Below, in pieces: positions 6,202 to 59,859 of a DNA stretch of 64,000 nucleotides (positions are counted from its first letter, which is position 1; each line of letters starts with the position of its first letter). A program made the position numbers and the translations under genes. The notes beneath the pieces were generated by a model. That model worked only from the letters and a program-made list of their open reading frames with translations, had not been told where the DNA came from and made no database searches. The stretch is from Alphaproteobacteria bacterium (GTDB lineage: Bacteria > Pseudomonadota > Alphaproteobacteria > Caulobacterales > Aquidulcibacteraceae): positions 1 through 64,000 of the forward strand of contig JAGWZE010000002.1 in NCBI GenBank assembly GCA_018969015.1, read 5' to 3'.

Positions 6202-6768
6202 CTAGCCCTCGCGCGCGGCGTCGAGATCGGCGCGGGTGTTGACGTTCAAGAACGCGCGCGCGTCGGGAAACCAGGCCGGCGCGGCGTCGAGTGTGCGCAA
6301 TACGGCGTGCATTGGCGGATGGTCCTGCGCACGCGCGGCGGCTGCGACGACCGGTTCGGCGTCGATGCGATAGATGGCGCACAGCGGCTCGTCGCCTGCG
6401 GGGTGGCGTGCGAACGCGGCGCGTCGGTTCTTGGCTGCAGCATACAGCGTCTGCGCGACGTCGACGGGCAGAAGCGGGGTGTCGCAGGGCGCGACTGCGA
6501 GCCAGGCGACGTTGTGCATCCGCGCCCAGGCGAGACCTGCGGCGAGGCCTGCGAGGGGGCCGGGCGTGGCGAAGGGCGGGTCCTGCAGGCGCGCGTCGGC
6601 GCCGGCGGCGACGGCCATGTCTTCCGGCCCGGCCACGGCCAGCGGCGACACGCCCAGTCGCTGCGCCACGTGTGCGATGACGGGGCGTCCGAACAGGTCG
6701 GCCAGCGCCTTGGGCGCGCCGAACCGGGACGATTTTCCGCCCGCAAGAATGAGCGCGCCGATCGTCAT
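6202..6768 (-). CDS. mobA: Molybdenum cofactor guanylyltransferase
   Basis: MobA joins GMP to Mo-molybdopterin to give the guanine dinucleotide cofactor used by DMSO-reductase-family enzymes such as the one at 11549-13753. The protein starts [17 protein letters not shown], holding the LAGGxSSRxG nucleotide-binding motif at residues 7-16, followed by the K of PKAL and VAPCDTPLL (about 92-100, the metal-binding Asp). The start at 6768 gives 188 residues; an alternative ATG at 6792 adds eight residues but pushes into the short divergent gap with moaA, and neither has a clear Shine-Dalgarno. It is convergent with thuA (35 bases apart) and divergent from moaA. Confidence 0.88.
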
Positions 6769-6821
6769 GGGCGCCCGATCGTCATAGCCCATCGTGGGGC
6801 CGGGTGCGGGGAGGCGTGGTC

Positions 6822-7859
6822 GTGACAGCGCAGGCGTCGCATCCGCCCACCATGCCTCAAGAGGCCAGGCCCCTGGTAGATTCCTTTGGTCGGGCGATCA
6901 CCTATCTGCGCGTCTCCGTGACCGATCGATGCGACCTGCGCTGCACCTACTGCATGCCCGAGCGCATGACGTTCCTGCCGAAACCCGACGTGCTGACGTT
7001 CGAGGAGCTGGACGCGATCTGCACGGCGTTCATTGCGCGCGGTGTCCGGCGGCTGCGGCTCACGGGCGGCGAGCCGCTGGGCCGGCGCGGCCTGCTCGGG
7101 TTCGTCGAGGGGCTGTCGCGGCATTTGCGTTCAGGCGCGCTGGAGGAAATGACCCTCACGACCAATGGCGTCGCGCTGGCGCGCCATGCGGAGGCGCTCT
7201 TCGCTGCGGGCGTCCGCCGCGTCAACGTCTCGCTCGACACGCTCGACCCCGCGGTGTTTGCGCGCATCACGCGACGCAACAAGCTCCCCGAGGTTTTGGC
7301 CGGGATCGAGGCGGCGCGGGCCGCGGGCCTCGCCGTCAAGATCAACACGGTTGCGCTGGCGCAGGACAATGCGGACGAGCTGCCGCGCCTCATCCAATGG
7401 GCGCACGGGCAGGGCATGGACATCACGCTGATCGAAGCGATGCCCATGGGCGACGTCGACGCCGATCGCCCGGAGCAGCATCTTTCGCTGAAAGATGTGC
7501 GCGCCACGCTCACGTCGTTCTGGACGCTGACGGACACGGATGATCGCACCGGCGGGCCGGCGCGCTACGTTCGCGTGCGCGAGACCGGCGGCCGCATCGG
7601 GTTCATCACGCCGCTGAGCCACAATTTCTGCGAAAGCTGCAACCGCGTTCGGCTGACCTGCACGGGGATGCTCTACACCTGCCTCGGCCGCGAGGACCGC
7701 ATGGATCTGCGCGCTGTGTTGCGCGCAGGCGGCGGCGCGCCCGCGGTGCATGCGGCGATCGATGCGGCGCTTGCGGCCAAGCCTGCGGGCCATGACTTCC
7801 GTATCGAGCGTCTCGCCACGCCCGCATCGCCCCGACAAATGTCCGTAACCGGAGGCTAG
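6822..7859 (+). CDS. moaA: GTP 3',8-cyclase (radical SAM), molybdenum cofactor step 1
   Basis: MoaA, with MoaC, converts GTP to cyclic pyranopterin monophosphate. The radical-SAM cluster motif is CDLRCTYC (CxxxCxxC), the SAM-binding LTGGEP follows, and the second 4Fe-4S cluster uses [12 protein letters not shown]...YTCLG near the C terminus. The protein ends MSVTGG, matching the conserved C-terminal GG tail essential for GTP binding. The GTG at 6822 is chosen because GGGGAGG sits seven bases upstream; GTG 6804 and ATG 6852 are alternatives. It heads a tightly packed moa operon. Confidence 0.93.
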
Positions 7860-32925: not shown

Positions 32926-33816
32926 ATGCGTCTCTCCGATTTCCTTTTGCTTTCCCTGATCTGTCTGGTGTGGGGGCTCAACCTCGTCGCGACGCGATGG
33001 GTGGTCGCCGACGTGCCGCCGCTCGCCTATGCGTTCCTGCGCTTCGCGCTGATCGCCGTCGTGCTCGCGCCGTTCCTGTTTCCGGCGCCGCGCAATCTGG
33101 GGCTCGTGGCGCTCGTCGGCCTGTGCATCGGCGGGTTGAATTTCGCGTTTCTTTTCATCGCGCTGAAGAACGGTACGGCGTCCTCGGTGGCGATTGCGGG
33201 CCAGCTCGGGCTGCCGTTCTCCACGATCCTGTCGATGGCGTTTCTGGGTGAGACGGTCGGATGGCGCCGCGGGCTCGGCATGGGGCTCGCCTTCGCGGGC
33301 GTGGTGCTGATCGCCTATGATCCCAACACGTTCGGGCTTTCGCTCGGGGTGGCGTTCGCGGTGCTCGCGGCGCTCGTCGGCTCCGTCGGCGGCATCATCA
33401 TGAAGCGCATGGAGCCGATCGGGCCCTTCCAGCTGCAGGCCTGGGTGGCGATGGTGTCGTGGCCGATCCTGCTGCCGCTGACGCTGGCGACGGAGACGGG
33501 GCAGATCGCGGCCGTGCAGGCGGGCGGCTGGGGCTTCCTCGCGGCGCTGGCGTTCTCGGTCTTTGCCGTGTCGATCTTCGGCCACGGGATGTTCTACGAG
33601 ATCGTCAAGAAGTACGAGGTGACGCTCGTCTCGCCGCTGACGCTGATGACGCCGGTGTGGGCCGTCGTGTTCGGCGTGCTGCTGCTGCACGAAACGCTGA
33701 CGCCCCAACTCGCCGGCGGCGCGGCGCTCGCGCTCACCGGCGTGGGCATGATCGCCGCGCGCCCGAACGCGGCGCTGCGCAAACTCTCCGCGTTGTTCCG
33801 GGAGTGGACCTCGTGA
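32926..33816 (+). CDS. EamA-family (DMT superfamily) transporter
   Basis: A 296-residue integral membrane protein with ten hydrophobic segments forming two EamA repeats. It opens [26 protein letters not shown] (residue 16 Trp-Gly in the VWGxN motif) and has the inter-repeat loop [21 protein letters not shown]-like ([20 protein letters not shown]). Family members export or import small metabolites such as amino acids, nucleotide sugars or drugs; substrate not predictable. Its stop TGA overlaps the GTG of the amidase gene (GTGA). Confidence 0.85.
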
Positions 33817-37906: not shown

Positions 37907-38782
37907 ATGTCCGAAAACAAGACGGGACCGTCGCCGATGGGCGCCGTTGCGGCCGTCGCGCTGGGCGCGGCGGTCATCGGCTTTGCGCCGATCGGGCTGC
38001 GGCTGTCCGAACTCGGGCCGATGGCGACGGCGTTCTGGCGCTTCGTGTTCGCGCTCCCGGGACTGTTCGTCCTCGCCGCGATGGCGCCGCGCGAGGGGCG
38101 GCCGCAAAAGCTCGGGCCGCTGGTTGCGGCGGGCGTGTGCTTCGGCCTCGACCTGACCTTGTGGCACGCGGCGCTCACGCACACGACCGTGCTCAACGCG
38201 ACGATGCTCTCCAACATGACGCCCGTGCTCGCGGCTGCGGGCGGCTGGCTGTTCCTGCGCGAGCGGGTGTCCTGGGGGTTTGCGCTGGGCGCCGCGATCG
38301 CGCTCGGCGGCGCGGCCGTGCTGACGACGTCGCGCATCGGCGCCGGGGCCGGCGGCGGCGTCACGGGGGACGCGCTCGCGCTGTTCTCAGCGGTTTGGTA
38401 CGCGGCCTATCTCGTGATCCTGCGCGTGGGGCGGCGCGGCGTGGACGTGCGCGTGGCGATGCTCGTGACGACGCTCGCTTCGCTGCCGGTGGCGGTGATC
38501 GCAACGCTCGCGACGGGTGAAGCCTGGCTGCCGCACACGGCGCAGGGCTGGCTCGTGCTGATCGGGCTCGGCGTCATCGTGCACATGGGTGGGCAAGGGC
38601 TGATCGCCTATGGCGTGGGGCGTTTGCCGATCGCGCTCTCCACGGTGATCTTGTGGGTGCAGCCGGTGGCGGCCGCGGCGCTGGGATGGGTGTTGTTCGG
38701 CGAAGCGCTGGGCCCGCTCGCGTTCGTGGGCGCGGCGTTGATCCTTGCGGGCGTCTGGGTGGTGCAGCGCGAGCGGCGGTAG
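37907..38782 (+). CDS. EamA-family (DMT superfamily) transporter
   Basis: A second EamA protein, 291 residues and ten hydrophobic segments. It opens MSENKTGPSPMGAVAAVALGAAVIGFAPIGLRLSELGPMATAFWR and carries the family's repeat junction (LFLRERVSWGFALGAAIALGGAAVLTTSR in part). Substrate unknown. It lies after the export lipoprotein in the same direction, 86 bases away. It converges on the ecm gene, 24 bases after its stop. Confidence 0.84.
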   Translation: MSENKTGPSPMGAVAAVALGAAVIGFAPIGLRLSELGPMATAFWRFVFALPGLFVLAAMAPREGRPQKLGPLVAAGVCFGLDLTLWHAALTHTTVLNATMLSNMTPVLAAAGGWLFLRERVSWGFALGAAIALGGAAVLTTSRIGAGAGGGVTGDALALFSAVWYAAYLVILRVGRRGVDVRVAMLVTTLASLPVAVIATLATGEAWLPHTAQGWLVLIGLGVIVHMGGQGLIAYGVGRLPIALSTVILWVQPVAAAALGWVLFGEALGPLAFVGAALILAGVWVVQRERR

Positions 38783-50923: not shown

Positions 50924-52393
50924 ATGAGCGGGGACGGCGACGTGCAGGCGGCAGTGACGATGGAGAGCGCGACCGCAGCGGGCACGCCGCTGGTGGTCGA
51001 CATGGACGGCACGCTTCTGCGCACCGACGTGCTTTACGAGGGCATGGCGGCTGCGTTCGCCAAGCGCCCGCTGGCGGCGCTCGCGGCGCTCCCGCTGCTG
51101 CTGCGCGGCCGGGCGCCCTTCAAGCGTCGGATCGCCGAGATCGCGCCGCTCGACGTGACCGGGCTGCCGGCCCGGGACGATTTCGTCGGCTGGCTGCAAA
51201 CGGAAAAAGCCCGCGGCCGCGAAGTGCATCTCGTCAGCGCGGGCGAAGAGAGCGTCGTGCAGGCGGTGGCGGCGCGCTTCGGCGTGTTCGATACGGCGCA
51301 GGGCAGCGACGGAACCCGCAATCTCAAGGGCTCACGCAAGGCGGAAGAGCTCCGCCGCCGGTTTCCAGGCGGGTACGTGTATGCCGGCGACAGCCATGCC
51401 GATCTGGCGGTGTGGCGCACGGCGTCGGCCGCGGTGCTGACGGGGGCTTCGCCGGCCGTCGCCGCGCAGGCCGCGCGGCTCACGACGATCGAGAAGCGCT
51501 TCGACAATCCGCCCTCCGGTTTCCGCGTGTGGCGCAAGGCGCTGCGGCTGCAGCAATGGGCGAAGAACCTGCTGCTGTTCGCGCCGCTGTTCCTCGCGGG
51601 CGCGTTCGACGACGCGCACGCCATTCTCATGGCGATGATCGGGTTCGTGCTCGTGGGCCTGACGGCGTCCGGCACGTACGTGCTGAACGATCTCGCCGAT
51701 CTGCAGGCGGATCGCCGGCATCGCACGAAGCGCAACCGGCCGTTCGCATCCGGCGCGCTCGGCGTCGAGAAGGGCATGATCGCCGCGCCGGTATTCATCC
51801 TCGGCGGGTTGGCGGCGGCCTTCGCGCTCGACGTCCGGTTCGGGGCGGTGCTGCTGATCTATCTGATCACGACCTTGTCCTATTCGTTCCGGTTGAAGAC
51901 CGTCCCGTTTCTGGACGTTTCGGTGCTCGCCGGCCTTTACACGTTGCGCCTGATCATGGGCGCGGTGCTCATCGGCGCGCCGGTCTCGGCCTGGTTGCTG
52001 ACGTTCTCGGCCGCGTTCTTCCTGTCGCTTTCGCTGGCGAAGCGGCACGTCGAGGTGGCGCACGCCACGGGCTCGGGGAAGGTGATGGGCCGGGGCTACC
52101 GCGTCGAGGACGCTCCGCTCACGCTGGCGTTCGGCGTCGCGAGCGGGCTGGCCTCGATCCAGATCCTCGTGACCTATCTCATGGAAGAGGCATTCCCCTC
52201 GGGCGTCTATGCCGTGCCGGCGTTCCTGTGGGCGGCGCCGGTGCTCATCGCCCTGTGGGTGATGCGCATCTGGCTGCTCGCCCATCGCGGCGAGCTCGAT
52301 GACGATCCCGTCGCCTTCGCGGTCCGGGACCGGATCAGCTACGCGCTGGGCGCCGGGCTCGCGGTCGCGTTCGGGATGGCCGTGTTCGCATGA
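50924..52393 (+). CDS. HAD phosphatase-UbiA prenyltransferase fusion (DPPR-synthase-like)
   Basis: A 489-residue protein with an N-terminal HAD phosphatase domain (VDMDGTLLRTDVLYEG near residues 26-41; catalytic DxD) and a C-terminal UbiA-fold polyprenyltransferase with about nine membrane helices. Diagnostic motifs are YVLNDLADLQADRRHRTKRNRP (N255, D256, D259, D263) and YSFRLKTVPFLDVSVLAGLYTLR (second Asp-rich motif). The NDxxDxxxDxxHxTKxxRP pattern matches decaprenylphosphoryl-5-phosphoribose synthase (Rv3806c type), which joins PRPP to a polyprenyl phosphate; the fused phosphatase would remove the 5-phosphate. It is followed by DprE1- and DprE2-like genes overlapping by ATGA. ATG 50924 chosen over GTG 50918. 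Confidence 0.88.
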   Translation: MSGDGDVQAAVTMESATAAGTPLVVDMDGTLLRTDVLYEGMAAAFAKRPLAALAALPLLLRGRAPFKRRIAEIAPLDVTGLPARDDFVGWLQTEKARGREVHLVSAGEESVVQAVAARFGVFDTAQGSDGTRNLKGSRKAEELRRRFPGGYVYAGDSHADLAVWRTASAAVLTGASPAVAAQAARLTTIEKRFDNPPSGFRVWRKALRLQQWAKNLLLFAPLFLAGAFDDAHAILMAMIGFVLVGLTASGTYVLNDLADLQADRRHRTKRNRPFASGALGVEKGMIAAPVFILGGLAAAFALDVRFGAVLLIYLITTLSYSFRLKTVPFLDVSVLAGLYTLRLIMGAVLIGAPVSAWLLTFSAAFFLSLSLAKRHVEVAHATGSGKVMGRGYRVEDAPLTLAFGVASGLASIQILVTYLMEEAFPSGVYAVPAFLWAAPVLIALWVMRIWLLAHRGELDDDPVAFAVRDRISYALGAGLAVAFGMAVFA

Positions 52394-53709
52394 TCCTGCC
52401 TGCGCCAGGTCCGGCGGAATCGTGGGGGCGCGTCGTGCGCGCCTCCAGCCGGCGTCTTGCGCCGCAGTTCCGGGACGAGGTGGCGCGCGGATTGGCGGCG
52501 GCGCGCGATGCGGGCGTGTCGACGCTCGGCGTCGGCCTCGGCCGCTCCTATGGCGACAGCGGGCTGAATTCCGATCAGGCCGTGATCGATGCGCGTCATC
52601 TCGATCGCTTGATCTCGTTCGATCCGGACGCCGGCGTCCTGCGGGCCGAGGCGGGGGCGTCGCTCGGCGCGCTGGCCCAGGTCCTGGCGCCGCGCGGCTT
52701 CTTCCTGCCGACCGTTCCCGGCACACGCTTCGTCACGCTCGGCGGCGCGGTGGCCAATGACGTGCACGGAAAGAACCACGAACGCGCCGGCACGTTCGGC
52801 GCGAATGTCCGCCGGATCGGGCTGCGGCGCAGCGACGGCGTCGTCGAGATCGCGCCGGGCGACGACCTGTTCGCCGCGACGATCGGCGGCCTCGGTCTCA
52901 CCGGGTTCATCGAGTGGGTCGAGATCGGCGTCACGCGCATCCCGTCCACGCTGATCGACCAGGAGACGATCCCGTTCGACGATCTCGACGCGTTCTTCGC
53001 CATCGCGGCCGAGAGCAAGGCGAGGTTCGAGCACACCGTTGCCTGGGTTGATTGCACGCAAGGCGGCAAAAGCATCGGCCGCGGCGTGTTCACACGCGGC
53101 GTCTGGGCTCCGGACGGTGGATTTGCGCCGCATACGGATCGTGCGCTGCCGGTCCCCATCGAGGCGCCGTCCTTCGCGCTCAATCCGCTGACGCTGAAGG
53201 CCTTCAACGTCGCCTACGATGCGGCGCAGCGGCTGAAGGCCGGGACGGCGCGCGTGCACTATACGGGGCATTTCTGGCCGCTGGATTCGCTGTTCGGCTG
53301 GAACAAGCTCTACGGGCCGAAAGGCTTCTACCAGTACCAATGCGTGCTGCCCTGGGCGACGGGCCGCGACGGCGTCGCCGAGATGCTGCGGCGCATCGCG
53401 CGCTCGGGCGAGGGCTCGTTCCTCGCCGTGCTCAAGACCTTCGGCGACAGGCCCTCGCCGGGCATGCTGTCGTTCCCGATGCCCGGCACGACGCTGGCGC
53501 TCGATTTCCGCAATCGCGGCGCGGCGACGATGAAGCTTCTCGCCGCCCTGGACGACATCGTGCGCGAGGCCGGCGGGCGGCTCTATCCCGCAAAGGACGG
53601 ACGCATGCCGGCGGCGATGTTCCGCGCCGGCTATCCCGCGCTCGACCGGTTCGCCACGTTCGTCGATCCCGCTTTTTCGTCCGATTTCTGGAGACGCATC
53701 ACCGCATGA
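52390..53709 (+). CDS. DprE1-like FAD-dependent epimerase subunit
   Basis: A 439-residue VAO/PCMH-fold flavoprotein. It has VGLGRSYGDSGLN (near residue 48-60), LGGAVANDVHGKNHERAGTFG (about 117-137, FAD and substrate binding), FYQYQCVLPW and a C-terminal RLYPAKDGRM. With DprE2 it would oxidise the 2'-OH of a polyprenylphosphoryl-ribose. The mycobacterial benzothiazinone-target Cys (in NICVDF) is Ala370 here (TTLALDF), while the catalytic Lys is K402 (YPAKDGR). ATGA overlap with the UbiA gene before and the SDR after it. Confidence 0.88.
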   Translation: MILPAPGPAESWGRVVRASSRRLAPQFRDEVARGLAAARDAGVSTLGVGLGRSYGDSGLNSDQAVIDARHLDRLISFDPDAGVLRAEAGASLGALAQVLAPRGFFLPTVPGTRFVTLGGAVANDVHGKNHERAGTFGANVRRIGLRRSDGVVEIAPGDDLFAATIGGLGLTGFIEWVEIGVTRIPSTLIDQETIPFDDLDAFFAIAAESKARFEHTVAWVDCTQGGKSIGRGVFTRGVWAPDGGFAPHTDRALPVPIEAPSFALNPLTLKAFNVAYDAAQRLKAGTARVHYTGHFWPLDSLFGWNKLYGPKGFYQYQCVLPWATGRDGVAEMLRRIARSGEGSFLAVLKTFGDRPSPGMLSFPMPGTTLALDFRNRGAATMKLLAALDDIVREAGGRLYPAKDGRMPAAMFRAGYPALDRFATFVDPAFSSDFWRRITA

Positions 53710-54479
53710 CGACGCCTGTCGCCCTATCGCCCCGTCGTGTCGTCGTGCTCGGCGCGGCCTCCGCCATCGCCGAAGCGACCTGCCGCGTGCTTGCGGCGCA
53801 GGGCGCGTCCTTCGCGCTGCTCGGGCGCGACGCTGCGCGTCTCGACGCCATCGCCGCGGATCTCTCGGCGCGCGGCGCGGCAAAGGCCGTCGCGGTCGCC
53901 AAGGACCTCGCCGACGCCCGCGACGCCGAGGCGGTGCTTGCGGCGTGCGCGCGCGACATCGGCCCCATCGACACCGTGATGATCTTCTACGGCGTGCTGG
54001 GCGATCAGGCGCAGGCGGAAGCCGATCTCGCCGAGGCCGCGCGGCTCTTGCAGGTGAACTTCACGAGCGCGGCGCTGTGGGCGCTCGCGGCGGCGCCGCA
54101 TGTCGAGCAGGCGGGCGCGCGCGGCGTGATCCTCGCGGTGTCGAGCGTGGCGGGCGACCGCGGCCGGCGCTCGAACTTCATCTATGGCGCGGCGAAGGGC
54201 GGGCTCGCGCTGATCATGCAGGGGCTCGCGCACAAGTTCGGCGCCAAGCCCGGCGGGCCGCGCGCGGTGGCGCTCAAACTCGGCTTCGTGGACACGCCGA
54301 TGACGGCGCACGTGAAGAAGGGCGGGCCGCTTTGGGCGACGCCAGCGGGCGTGGCGCCCGTGATCGCGCGCGCGCTCGAGCGCGGCGGGCCGATGGTTTA
54401 TGCGCCGTGGTTCTGGCGCTTCGTCATGCTGGCGATCCGCGTGACGCCGCAGGCCATCTTCAACCGCGTGAACCTCTAA
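53706..54479 (+). CDS. DprE2-like SDR, keto-sugar reductase
   Basis: A 257-residue atypical SDR. It starts MTTPVALSPRRVVVLGAASAIAEATCRVLA (nucleotide motif GAASAIAEA), has FYGVLGDQAQAEAD, SSVAGDRGRRSNFIYGAAKGGLALIMQGLAHK (Ser, Tyr and Lys of the active site) and LKLGFVDTPMTAHVKKG. This resembles Rv3791 (DprE2), which reduces the ketone to the arabinose isomer with NADH. It overlaps the DprE1 gene by four bases and ends the operon 17 bases from a convergent gene. Confidence 0.87.
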   Translation: MTTPVALSPRRVVVLGAASAIAEATCRVLAAQGASFALLGRDAARLDAIAADLSARGAAKAVAVAKDLADARDAEAVLAACARDIGPIDTVMIFYGVLGDQAQAEADLAEAARLLQVNFTSAALWALAAAPHVEQAGARGVILAVSSVAGDRGRRSNFIYGAAKGGLALIMQGLAHKFGAKPGGPRAVALKLGFVDTPMTAHVKKGGPLWATPAGVAPVIARALERGGPMVYAPWFWRFVMLAIRVTPQAIFNRVNL

Positions 54480-54495: not shown

Positions 54496-55050
54496 TCAGC
54501 CCACGGAACGGTTGGCCATCGCCTCGAAGCAGGCCTCGATCGACGACGCCGAGAGCATCGCCGCGCTGAACGTGGCGGGCGTGAGCTTGGCCGCGATCGT
54601 GTGGTCGATCAGGTGGAAGAACGGATCCCAGAAGCCGTCCTCGGCGAGGAACACCACCGGCTTGGCGTGCAGATCGAGGCGGCGCCAGGACAGCGTTTCG
54701 ACGACTTCCTCCAGCGTGCCGATGCCGCCGGGGAGCACGACGAAGGCGTCGCTCTCGTCGAACATGATGCGTTTGCGCTCGTGCATGGTGTCGACCATGC
54801 GGTGCGGGACGGCTTCGTAGGTGATTTCGCGCCGGGCCAGGAAATGCGGCATCACGCCGAGCACCTGGCCGCCGTTCTCGTGGGCGGCGCGGGCGACGCG
54901 GCCCATCAGGCCGACGCGACCGCCGCCATAGACGAGCCGCATGCCGCGCTGCGCCAGGGCGGTTCCAAAACGCGTAGCCAAATCAAGGTATTGGGGGTCT
55001 GCGGCGTCGGACGAGCCGCAATAGACGCAAACGGAGGCGAGTGGTTTCAT
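54496..55050 (-). CDS. LOG-family (TIGR00730) nucleoside 5'-monophosphate phosphoribohydrolase
   Basis: A 184-residue Rossmann-like enzyme of the LONELY GUY family (often mislabelled lysine decarboxylase). It starts MKPLASVCVYCGSSDAADPQYL, then LVYGGGRVGLMG, HERKRIMFDESDAFVVLPGGIGTLEE (the PGGxGTxxE signature, about 113-121). It hydrolyses N6-modified AMP to a free base, or other nucleoside monophosphates. Upstream there is CGGAGGC-like sequence. Convergent with the DprE2-like gene. Confidence 0.93.
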   Translation of the reverse strand: MKPLASVCVYCGSSDAADPQYLDLATRFGTALAQRGMRLVYGGGRVGLMGRVARAAHENGGQVLGVMPHFLARREITYEAVPHRMVDTMHERKRIMFDESDAFVVLPGGIGTLEEVVETLSWRRLDLHAKPVVFLAEDGFWDPFFHLIDHTIAAKLTPATFSAAMLSASSIEACFEAMANRSVG

Positions 55051-55158
55051 GAGGCCTCCATAGCAGGTTCGCCGCCGCCGCGCCTGCCCTCGCGACGAGC
55101 TCGCACCGTGGCCGTCGGGCGCATTGCCGGGGCCGCCCTGGACCCCTAGGTACGACGG

Positions 55159-57021
55159 ATGAAGACCGCCTCCGTTCCGGCGCCGCACGCGCCGGCCTCG
55201 CCGCATGCCGGCCGCGCCGCCCCCGAAGCTCCCGACGCCAGCGTGCCGGTGACGGTCGCCATCCGCCGCATCATGACCCTGATCGGCGGGCTGAAGGGAT
55301 CGGGCGTGCGGACGCGGCTGTGGGTGTCGCTGGCGCTTACGCTCGCGGGCAAGGTGCTCGCGGTGCTGTCGCCGCTCGTGCTGGCGGACGGGATCAACAA
55401 GCTCGCCAAAGGCGATCCGTCCGGCACGGCCTGGATGTTCGCCGGGCTCGTCGGGTTCTGGGCCGCGCTCCGGTTCGCCTCGACGGCCGGCCCGCAGGTG
55501 CGCGACGCCATCTTCGCGCCGGTCTCGGAAGAGGCGCAGCGCCGGGCGGGCACGGCCGTGTTCGCGCACGTGCATGCGCTGTCGGTGCGTTTCCACCAGT
55601 CCAAGCGCACGGGGGGCCTGCACCGCACGATCGAGCGCGGCGTGCGCGCGATCGACTTCCTGCTGCGCTTCCTCGCCTTCAACATTGCGCCCACCGTGAT
55701 GGAGCTCGCGCTCGCGGCCGGCGTGCTGGCCTTCAAGTACGGCCCGGCCTTCGCGGCGATCGCGGCGGGCACCGTCGTGCTCTATGCCTGGATGACGTTC
55801 GGCATCACCGAATGGCGGCTCTCGCACCGGCGCGAGATGAACGAGCGCGACACCGAGGCGTCGGGCCGCGTCGTCGACAGTCTGTTGAACTTCGAAACCG
55901 TGAAGGCGTTCGCCGCCGAGAAGCGGGAAGTGGAGCGCTACGACCGGGCGCTGGCGCAGTACGCGCGCGCTGCGGTGCGTTCGAACACGTCGCTCGTCGC
56001 GCTCAACGTGGCGCAGGCGGCGGTGATGAACGTGGGCCTCGCCGCGATGGTGGCGTGGGCCGGCTGGCGCGTGACCGGCGGCGCGATGGGCCCCGGCGAC
56101 ATCACCGCCGTGATGCTCATCATGCTGAACATCTACACGCCGCTGAACATTCTCGGCTTCGCCTACCGCGAGATCAAACAGAGCTCCATCGACATGGAGA
56201 AGATGTTCGCGCTGCTCGACGAGAAGCCCGACGTCGCCGAGGCGCCGGGCGCGGCGACGCTCGTCGCCCGCGGGGGCGAGGTGGCCTTCGAGAACGTCGG
56301 TTTCGCCCACGAAGGCCGCGACGCCGGCCTTGCCGGCGTGAGCTTCGTGGCGCCGGCCGGCAAGACGACGGCCGTGGTCGGCCCGAGCGGCGCCGGCAAA
56401 TCCACGGTGCTGAAGCTGCTGTTCCGCTTCTACGATCCGAGCGCGGGGCGCGTGTTGATCGACGGCCAGGACATCAAGGGCGTGACGCAGGCGAGCCTGC
56501 GCGCGCAGCTGGGGCTGGTGCCGCAGGACGTCGTGCTGTTCAACGACACGATCCGCTACAACATCGCCTATGGCCGGCCCGACGCGCCGCTCGAGGAGAT
56601 CGAGGAGGCCGCGCGGCGCGCGCAGCTTCTCGAGTTCATTCGCGCATTGCCGCAGGGCTGGGACACGCGGGTGGGCGAGCGCGGGCTGAAGCTTTCAGGC
56701 GGGGAGCGCCAGCGCGTCGGCATAGCGCGCGTGGTGCTCAGGGACCCGAAGATCCTGGTGCTCGACGAGGCCACGTCCTCGCTCGACAGCCGCACCGAGG
56801 CGGAGGTGCAGTCCGCGCTCGAGGAGGCCGCCAAGGGCCGTACGACGATCGTGGTGGCGCACCGCCTCTCGACGATCGCCGGCGCCGATCAGATCGTGGT
56901 GTTGAAGGACGGCCGCATCGTCGAACGCGGCACGCACGCGGACCTCGTGGCGCGCGGCGGCGAGTATGCGGAGCTGTGGAAACGCCAGGCGCTGGAGCGG
57001 GCGCAGGCGGAGGTGGCGTAG
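55159..57021 (+). CDS. ABC transporter, Atm1/HMT1-type half exporter
   Basis: A 620-residue half transporter: six transmembrane helices (residues about 50-330, e.g. LWVSLALTLAGKVLAVLSPLVL) and an ATP-binding domain. Walker A GPSGAGKST is 408-416, Q-loop GLVPQDVVLFNDT, signature LSGGERQR, Walker B LVLDEATSSLD and H-loop VAHRLST. In the membrane part LHRTIERGVRAIDFLLRFLAFNIAPTVMEL matches the Atm1/HMT1 (ABCB6/7) pattern, so it probably exports glutathione conjugates, metal or sulfur compounds. The ATG at 55159 lies shortly after CCTAGG; a 620-residue length is normal. A dispersed palindrome follows at 57055. Confidence 0.95.
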   Translation: MKTASVPAPHAPASPHAGRAAPEAPDASVPVTVAIRRIMTLIGGLKGSGVRTRLWVSLALTLAGKVLAVLSPLVLADGINKLAKGDPSGTAWMFAGLVGFWAALRFASTAGPQVRDAIFAPVSEEAQRRAGTAVFAHVHALSVRFHQSKRTGGLHRTIERGVRAIDFLLRFLAFNIAPTVMELALAAGVLAFKYGPAFAAIAAGTVVLYAWMTFGITEWRLSHRREMNERDTEASGRVVDSLLNFETVKAFAAEKREVERYDRALAQYARAAVRSNTSLVALNVAQAAVMNVGLAAMVAWAGWRVTGGAMGPGDITAVMLIMLNIYTPLNILGFAYREIKQSSIDMEKMFALLDEKPDVAEAPGAATLVARGGEVAFENVGFAHEGRDAGLAGVSFVAPAGKTTAVVGPSGAGKSTVLKLLFRFYDPSAGRVLIDGQDIKGVTQASLRAQLGLVPQDVVLFNDTIRYNIAYGRPDAPLEEIEEAARRAQLLEFIRALPQGWDTRVGERGLKLSGGERQRVGIARVVLRDPKILVLDEATSSLDSRTEAEVQSALEEAAKGRTTIVVAHRLSTIAGADQIVVLKDGRIVERGTHADLVARGGEYAELWKRQALERAQAEVA

Positions 57022-58770: not shown

Positions 58771-59859
58771 ATGTCCGACATTTTCATCTCCTACAAGAAG
58801 GAGGACGCCGGGCGCGTCGTGCGCATCGTCGAGGCGCTGCGCGCCGAGGGATTCTCCGTGTGGTGGGATCACGGGATCACGCCGGGCGCGCAATGGGACC
58901 AGACGATCCAGCAGCAGCTCGACGCGGCCAAGGCGGTGGTGGCGGTGTGGTCGACGCTGTCGCGGGACGCGCCGTGGGTCAAAGAGGAGAGCGGCGTCGG
59001 CAAGAGCCGGGGCATCCTCGTGCCCGTGCGGATCGACGACGTGGAGCCGCCGCTCGGGTTCGGGCTGATCCAGGCGGTGGACTTGATCGGCTGGTCCGGC
59101 GACGTAAAGGACGCCCGGTGGGCGCATTTCACCGCGGCGCTGCGGGCGGTGCTCTCCGGGCAACGGCCCGCTCAGCTGGATGCGCCGTTGACGCGCAAGG
59201 CCCGTCGCGGGCCGCCGGCGTGGGCGTTCGCATTGGGGGCGGTCTTCGTTCTCGCGCTGGTCGCCGCCGGCGTACTGGCCGGGCTGCAGACGCTCTCCGT
59301 GAAAGCGACGAAGTCCGACGGCGCGACCTATGAAGTGACCACGGGGCGCGGCGCGCCCGGTCCTGGAACGGCGCCGTCTGCCTCAGGCGGCGCGCCGGCG
59401 ACCGCGGCCGACGCCACGGAGCAGAAGCTCTGGGATCAGGCGATGGCGTCGAAAAAGAAGTCCGATTTCCAGTCCTACCTTTTGGCCTACCCCAACGGCG
59501 CCTACACGGCGCGCGCGCGGGACGTTCTGCTCACTTGCCGAATGGAGACGCGCGAAACCTGGAAGGAATCGCCGTTTCCATCGAACCAGGCCGTGCGCGG
59601 CGTCGGCTCGGTTCCCGACGACGGCAAGACGAAAGAGCAGGCCTGTGCGGCGGCCAAATCGATGGCGCGCAAGCAGGCCGAGCGGAACTGTACGGCCATC
59701 GCCACGGGCGGCGGCTATCGCAACCCGCAATGGACCTATGACGACCGCGACTGCTCCTGCGACCAGACGAGCCCCGTCGTGACGGTGTGCATCGTGGATG
59801 CGCCGGCGACGTGCAGCTGGGAGGCGAAGATCCCTGAGCAGGTCGAAATCTGCGGCTGA
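58771..59859 (+). CDS. Membrane-anchored TIR-domain protein with a cysteine-rich outer domain
   Basis: A 362-residue protein in three parts: an N-terminal TIR domain (about 1-125; MSDIFISYKKEDAGRVVRIVEAL, then LSRDAPWVKEESGVGKSRGILVPV, where E73 is the probable NAD-hydrolase Glu in the SxWVxxE pattern), a transmembrane helix at about 149-172 (PAWAFALGAVFVLALVAAGVL in part) and an extracytoplasmic region of about 190 residues with eight Cys in its last 115 residues (TCR, QAC, RNC, DCSC, VCI, TCS and ICG). Such TIR proteins may function in signalling, cell death or defence. No nearby partner gene of a known defence system was recognised. A GGCGAGG site precedes the ATG. Confidence 0.85.
   Translation: MSDIFISYKKEDAGRVVRIVEALRAEGFSVWWDHGITPGAQWDQTIQQQLDAAKAVVAVWSTLSRDAPWVKEESGVGKSRGILVPVRIDDVEPPLGFGLIQAVDLIGWSGDVKDARWAHFTAALRAVLSGQRPAQLDAPLTRKARRGPPAWAFALGAVFVLALVAAGVLAGLQTLSVKATKSDGATYEVTTGRGAPGPGTAPSASGGAPATAADATEQKLWDQAMASKKKSDFQSYLLAYPNGAYTARARDVLLTCRMETRETWKESPFPSNQAVRGVGSVPDDGKTKEQACAAAKSMARKQAERNCTAIATGGGYRNPQWTYDDRDCSCDQTSPVVTVCIVDAPATCSWEAKIPEQVEICG

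Follow-up and report, generated by a model that had tools for sequence, protein, structure and literature searches.

A HAD-UbiA fusion gene with DprE1- and DprE2-like partners in an alphaproteobacterium: a putative donor-synthesis operon for polyprenyl-phosphate-linked D-arabinofuranose

In Citrobacter youngae O1, farnesyl-phosphate-ribofuranose (farnesyl-P-Ribf) is made from phosphoribosyl pyrophosphate (PRPP) by ORF15, a fusion of a HAD and a UbiA domain, as Kelly et al. (2024) established by mass spectrometry and NMR (PMC11127046). According to the same report, ORF15 needs the N, D, D and D of an NDxxDxxxD motif, and the nucleophilic Asp of the HAD domain for dephosphorylation; a variant of this nucleophile yields the 5-phosphate form, if not exclusively. 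A fusion of this kind opens the three-gene operon analyzed here, which lies at 50924-54479 (+) in a 64,000-nucleotide stretch of alphaproteobacterial DNA (the window: positions 1 to 64,000 of contig JAGWZE010000002.1, assembly GCA_018969015.1). Each neighboring pair of genes is joined by a 4-bp ATGA overlap:

50924-52393, + strand: gene 1, HAD-UbiA fusion, 489 amino acids, ATG start (a GTG start 6 bp upstream of the ATG is possible)
52390-53709, + strand: gene 2, DprE1-like FAD oxidase (putative polyprenyl-P-ribose 2'-oxidase), 439 amino acids
53706-54479, + strand: gene 3, DprE2-like reductase of the short-chain dehydrogenase/reductase (SDR) family (putative, 2-keto intermediate to arabinose), 257 amino acids

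Judged by the motifs named in PMC11127046, the window protein resembles ORF15 in having an N-terminal HAD domain fused to a DPPRS-like UbiA domain. The Citrobacter clusters, as described in that report, differ in serving Ribf (O1) or, via another SDR, xylofuranose (Xylf; O2), and in carrying a MATE flippase and a GT136 glycosyltransferase of the GT-C type, whereas the window has DprE1 and DprE2 homologues and neither a flippase nor a GT-C adjoining. Candidate systems for arabinofuranose (Araf) glycans are described there as carrying DprE1/E2 homologues. The order of reactions expected in the window is that of Rv3806c, Rv3807c, DprE1 and DprE2 of Mycobacterium tuberculosis, and in the PDB the three window proteins are closest by sequence to DPPRS, DprE1 and DprE2. 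Unlike the window, the mycobacterial system uses a decaprenyl lipid, has Cys387 in DprE1 where the window protein has Ala370, and, by the account in PMC11127046, relies on a separate and unrelated 5'-phosphatase. A Gram-negative precedent for D-Araf donor synthesis with a ubiA gene is the pilin glycosylation locus PSPA7_6245-6251 of Pseudomonas paraeruginosa, whose donor is described as going to type IV pilin via TfpW (PMC12369383); its PPPRS has no HAD domain, and the P. syringae homologue is said to have a C-terminal one (PMC11127046). Similarly, for the Azorhizobium caulinodans noeCHOP genes, resemblance to mycobacterial genes led to the proposal that noeC, noeH and noeO provide a D-arabinose precursor (PMC2443382), and the parallel drawn to them in the preliminary description of the window is thus in print. 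The likeness is one of description, and noeCHOP, unlike the window operon, is reported to serve Nod factor arabinosylation within a nod operon (PMC2443382).

In all likelihood, the three genes of the window are an operon for donor synthesis, whose product would be a pentofuranose linked to polyprenyl phosphate, D-arabinofuranose being the most probable sugar. We favor this assignment because the best sequence match of each protein among solved structures is the corresponding pathway enzyme, and because homology, motifs, gene order and fold agree. By analogy with characterized relatives, from which all four reactions are inferred, the pathway can be rationalized as follows. (i) The UbiA half would transfer ribose-5-phosphate from PRPP onto a polyprenyl phosphate, presumably undecaprenyl phosphate, giving polyprenyl-P-ribose-5-P. 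(ii) The HAD half would remove the 5'-phosphate to leave polyprenyl-P-ribose. (iii) The DprE1-like protein would oxidize C2' of the ribose to a keto group. (iv) The DprE2-like protein would reduce this keto group from the other face, yielding polyprenyl-P-D-Araf. Use of the donor outside the cytoplasm would then fall to a flippase and a GT-C glycosyltransferase whose genes lie elsewhere, and we class the operon as a module for donor synthesis only, short of a full three-component system of synthase, flippase and GT-C. The preliminary description, whose coordinates and domain calls were right (open reading frames, ATGA overlaps, HAD and UbiA, FAD_binding_4, SDR), had proposed a mycobacterial-type route from PRPP to polyprenyl-P-arabinose. 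Homology, motifs, gene order and fold back this route, qualified by the scores of genes 2 and 3, which fall under the equivalog cut-offs, and by sequence and model the enzymatic pathway is very probably the one described there. As the lipid, undecaprenyl phosphate is more likely than the decaprenyl phosphate of that description, as in PMC11127046.

Gene 1 consists of an N-terminal HAD-IB-type phosphatase half (residues ~20-196; Pfam HAD at 24-163) and a C-terminal DPPR-synthase-like UbiA half (residues ~199-489; Pfam UbiA at 222-463). It reaches 571 bits against the NCBIfam model of the fusion, NF006088 (cut-off 351), while three decaprenyl-phosphate phosphoribosyltransferase models match residues 191-488 with 99-145 bits, all under their cut-offs. 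The best PDB match by sequence is DPPRS 8j8j (E 6e-25, residues 204-487), and the DPPR synthase chains 8j8j and 8j8k are the sole solved structures matching at E <= 0.001. The DPPR-synthase signature reported previously was borne out, since NDLADLQADRRHRTKRNRP of gene 1 lines up with NDVRDVEADREHPTKRFRP of the solved enzyme. In a structure model built from 31 sequences (pLDDT 92.7, pTM 0.87), the closest folds are 8j8j (Z 28.2) and 8j8k (Z 26.4), the next UbiA protein following at Z 20.9, and Foldseek again placed 8j8j on top. For the HAD half of the model, the fold matches include a Bordetella protein of unknown function (Z 16.7), and SerB-type phosphatases reach Z values of up to 15.7. Proteins with a UbiA fold use a wide range of acceptors, and gene 1 weakly matches other UbiA models, as would be expected if the UbiA half had another acceptor (e.g., a quinone precursor or other lipid) and the HAD and redox genes acted in a different lipid pathway. 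However, these other models reach at most 43 bits against 99-145 for the DPPR-synthase models, the fold is nearest to DPPRS, and the next two genes are DprE1 and DprE2 homologues; we regard such an acceptor as very improbable.

The catalytic motifs of the fusion are intact. HAD residues D26, D28, K139 and D160 and UbiA residues N255, D256, D259, D263, R374 and E377 are invariant in both sets of aligned fusion proteins (9/9 and 31/31). A scan for gene 1 relatives, using one genome per species, gave at least 512 stretches, of which the 80 most query-like were kept (the named loci, L071-L150), and the residue check was widened to 93 loci, i.e., these 80 and 13 from relatives, with L034 and L089 being one place counted twice. 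In this wider alignment, the HAD nucleophile Asp is found in 92/93 (one gap), the second HAD Asp in 91/93 (one gap, one N), and the equivalents of K139 and D160 in 93/93, while the UbiA NDxxDxxxD positions are N, D, D and D in 89/89, the Arg is kept in 89/89 and the Glu in 88/89. The window fusion therefore carries the residues needed in Citrobacter ORF15, namely the N, D, D and D of NDxxDxxxD and the HAD nucleophile Asp. With these motifs, the score above the fusion-model cut-off and a UbiA half nearest to DPPRS in sequence and predicted fold, gene 1 is assigned to the HAD(PRP)-UbiA, or ORF15, type of putative polyprenyl phosphoribosyl synthase.

Gene 2 contains an FAD_binding_4 domain (PF01565), and its best PDB match by sequence is DprE1 (E 1e-64). 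With residue equivalences counted by hand from the alignment of gene 2 to DprE1, gene 2 has the DprE1 active-site residues (H132, K134, K367 and K418 equivalents), and the equivalents of H132, G133, K134, Q334, Q336, K367, D389 and K418 are kept in 50/50 aligned relatives. Two further positions differ from DprE1: that of Cys387, which is Ala in 49 and Thr in 1 of the 50 relatives (48 and 1 of 49 distinct places among L034-L150), and that of Asn385, replaced by Thr (38), Ser (11) or Cys (1). Benzothiazinones bind Cys387 covalently, and natural protection is described for M. avium, which has Ala at this position (PMC6015584); covalent benzothiazinones are therefore predicted not to hit the DprE1-like enzymes. 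For gene 3, the best PDB match by sequence is DprE2 (21gq_C, E 2e-28), and the YxxxK residues Y160 and K164 are kept in 48/48 aligned relatives. The matched DprE1 and DprE2 chains are presumably those of Mycobacterium tuberculosis.

The three genes recur together. A DprE1 homologue lies beside the fusion in 46/80 named loci, 3' of it and on the same strand in 45, and the fusion, DprE1 and DprE2 (the triad) occur together in 44/80, DprE2 following DprE1 in all 44; the one departure from the order fusion, DprE1, DprE2 is L089, where DprE1 and DprE2 stand ahead of the fusion. Because this order recurs (45 of 46 DprE1 loci, 44/44 DprE2 loci), the association is not chance. These 80 best loci, going by record titles, are mostly from Alpha-, Beta- and Gammaproteobacteria, with a few from Myxococcota, Nitrospira, Verrucomicrobia, Acidobacteria and others. 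Plasmids carry such genes too: at E <= 1e-40, a gene 1 relative is present in 81 plasmid records and a gene 2 relative in 63. Closer to the window, the full-length fusion is found above cut-off in 10/41 genomes and in 17/45 genomes of the family (those at least 90% complete), and DprE1 above 200 bits in 6/41, the window's own genome being included in each count. The gene set is widespread, not unusual; the fusion type and its principle have already been published (Kelly et al. 2024, PMC11127046), and the trio is frequent. The operon would extend the mycobacterium-like route to an arabinose donor to a further Gram-negative lineage, as a compact three-gene cassette for polyprenyl-P-arabinose. 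Since the set is frequent among proteobacteria, further glycans with D-arabinose (or ribose) may still come to light. In a record titled Streptomyces sp. AcH 505 (L081), a proteobacterial-type triad sits on a contig stretch with 55% G+C and is probably contamination.

Several results weigh against D-arabinofuranose donor synthesis at this locus. Gene 2 scores 324 bits (E 2e-96) against the DprE1 model NF053785, under the equivalog cut-off of 500, and gene 3 scores 154 bits against the DprE2 model NF053786, under its cut-off of 250, and is outscored there by another SDR model, PRK07102, at 226 bits (cut-off 267). Pfam tests of flanking genes revealed neither a GT-C nor a glycan flippase of known type, no GtrA-type flippase was found in the genome (MATE, PF01554, was not part of this search), and no GT-C tracks the operon cleanly across genomes. 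Because the equivalog cut-offs were missed, we name the proteins DprE1-like, not DprE1, and DprE2-like. Relatives that were tested also score under the cut-offs (381 and 357 bits for two DprE1 homologues and 156 bits for one DprE2 homologue, the proteins being both of those of L071 and the DprE1 of L139), so that the models may simply be narrow.

The same shortfall would fit an operon whose lipid-linked product carries a pentose different from D-arabinose, with the DprE1/DprE2-like pair acting at another carbon or epimerizing only partly to leave ribose or xylose. Along these lines, Citrobacter O2 is reported to make Xylf by a different SDR (PMC11127046), the relatives G011, G017 and G022 of genus g12 have no DprE1 match above 62 bits, and fusions without a DprE1 neighbor are common (34/80 named loci, of which four end within 2.5 kb of the fusion); ribose-only systems therefore probably exist. 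On the other hand, the DprE1 active-site equivalents (H132, K134, K367, K418) are kept in all 50 relatives, and in the scheme of Kelly et al., DprE1/E2 homologues go with Araf-containing glycans, whereas Xylf depends on a different enzyme (PMC11127046). A different pentose is thus unlikely for the window operon, and D-arabinofuranose remains the preferred product.

A fused HAD acting as the 5'-phosphatase, as suggested in the preliminary description, has a proven precedent in Citrobacter ORF15 (PMC11127046), by analogy with which the role is proposed here. The family genomes also hold this half on its own: in 11/45 (L043-L046, L164-L170), a HAD homologue occurs with no UbiA match at E <= 1e-30, and in 5 of these 11 the profile match contains one stop codon. 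Seven HAD-only genes of genus g12 have flanking genes, including an enoyl-CoA hydratase, in common with the G051 fusion. In two g9 genomes (L043, L046), the HAD-only gene stands beside ribosome-hibernation-type (S30AE) and PTS EIIA genes, which the triads of G021 and G007 also have nearby. This pattern would fit either a synthase that was lost while the phosphatase was kept, or the fusion of a synthase onto a resident phosphatase. The free-standing genes, and the flanks that seven of them have in common with a fusion, would speak for the HAD half being an independent phosphatase, fused by chance and not dedicated to the pathway. Yet the HAD of the Citrobacter fusion is reported to remove the 5'-phosphate, its D18A variant accumulating phosphorylated product with some activity left (PMC11127046), and the genes for a HAD alone may be relics, or copies that were co-opted. 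A chance fusion is accordingly improbable in our estimation, and a dedicated 5'-phosphatase is preferred.

The main interest of the locus lies in this free-standing HAD and in a transferase and flippase that do not adjoin the operon. A genome search for arabinosyltransferase genes, proposed earlier, was run, and no arabinosyltransferase or flippase was assigned, which leaves the D-arabinose-like glycan suggested in the preliminary description conjectural. The genome encodes one Polysacc_synt protein and four PMT_2 proteins, none tied to the operon, a tally that GT-C types lacking a Pfam model could escape. Two of the PMT_2 genes (C29 ~49 kb and 104 kb) adjoin a Glycos_transf_2 gene and therefore more likely use another lipid sugar. 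A third, at C29:22.6 kb, was dismissed as the GT-C of the operon, being present at E <= 1e-10 in 1/41 genomes, its own. The PMT_2 protein of C14 (533 amino acids) looked linked at first: of the 45 genomes from the family, 28 are positive for the HAD, 28 encode this GT-C with a score of at least 400 bits, and the two coincide in 27, the exceptions being G001 (fusion only), G055 (GT-C only) and G002 (a weak 130-bit GT-C match). It was rejected as evidence because it and the HAD both follow genus, because the 11 HAD-only genomes have it without the synthase, and because it also occurs, with no fusion, in other families of the order. The Polysacc_synt protein of C67 was similarly set aside as the flippase, with a relative (E <= 1e-20) in just one further genome of the 41 and 21% identity to a triad-adjacent one. 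On C67 (L157), a Flp-pilus cluster (Pfam Flp pilin and T2SSE, with several short Flp-like open reading frames) lies near a Polysacc_synt_3 flippase-like gene.

Candidate export and transfer genes are found near triads or fusions in other genomes. GtrA-type genes form one cluster, which comprises L042 and 7 named loci, and are also present in L071 (Pfam-confirmed in L042, L071 and L141); SMR/EamA-type genes in 9 named loci, most of them without DprE1 (confirmed in L132 and L150); and Polysacc_synt_3-type genes in 6 (confirmed in L076). Large proteins with multiple membrane segments form clusters of 7 and 4 loci, and the three tested (L083, L120, L139) have no Pfam match. The large membrane protein of L071 had no match in the window's genome, in a search run without a positive control. 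A pair of genes for an NAD-dependent epimerase and an FAD amine-oxidase-like protein is near triads in 16/80 named loci and at L171:2345-4564, and was not found in the window or in seven stretches of its genome. A guess that the 523-amino-acid membrane protein of L171 is AftB-like was dropped: Pfam gave nothing for this protein at E <= 0.1, and its PDB matches are only nanobody chains at E >= 0.09. Compared with the window, where the operon stands alone, the island of G049, from the same family, is fuller, with an epimerase, an amine oxidase, GtrA, the fusion, DprE1, DprE2, a methyltransferase encoded on the opposite strand and a 523-amino-acid membrane protein without a Pfam match. In L174, a GtrA gene (6477-7049, -) directly follows the G051 fusion on the opposite strand, with no DprE1/E2 near. 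As a tentative scenario, to which we give rather less than even credence, the D-Araf donor operon may work apart from its export and transfer genes, through a non-GtrA carrier and an unrecognized arabinosyltransferase acting on a surface glycan or protein target, the HAD half being independent and kept at the locus when the synthase is lost.

The G+C content of the operon (0.705) is similar to that of the window (0.689), and this composition test gave no sign of horizontal acquisition. By Pfam type, the flanking genes are CoA_transf_3, UvrD helicase, Lysine_decarbox (LOG type), ABC transporter, SDR, TIR and nucleoside transporter. Upstream of the operon, on the opposite strand, is the CoA-transferase family III gene (CoA_transf_3), and downstream are the LOG-type gene (Lysine_decarbox, -) and then the ABC transporter (+). 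The latter two (54499-57021) have relatives at L036:12961-15427 (74% and 76% identity), near the G011 fusion, where DprE1/E2 were not found; with the same LOG/ABC neighbors, the G011 fusion and the window operon therefore share a genomic place. Two EamA transporter genes (32926-33816 and 37907-38782, +) lie 12-18 kb upstream of the operon and are not tied to it. Further downstream, a TIR-domain protein with one predicted membrane segment is encoded at 58771-59859 (+).

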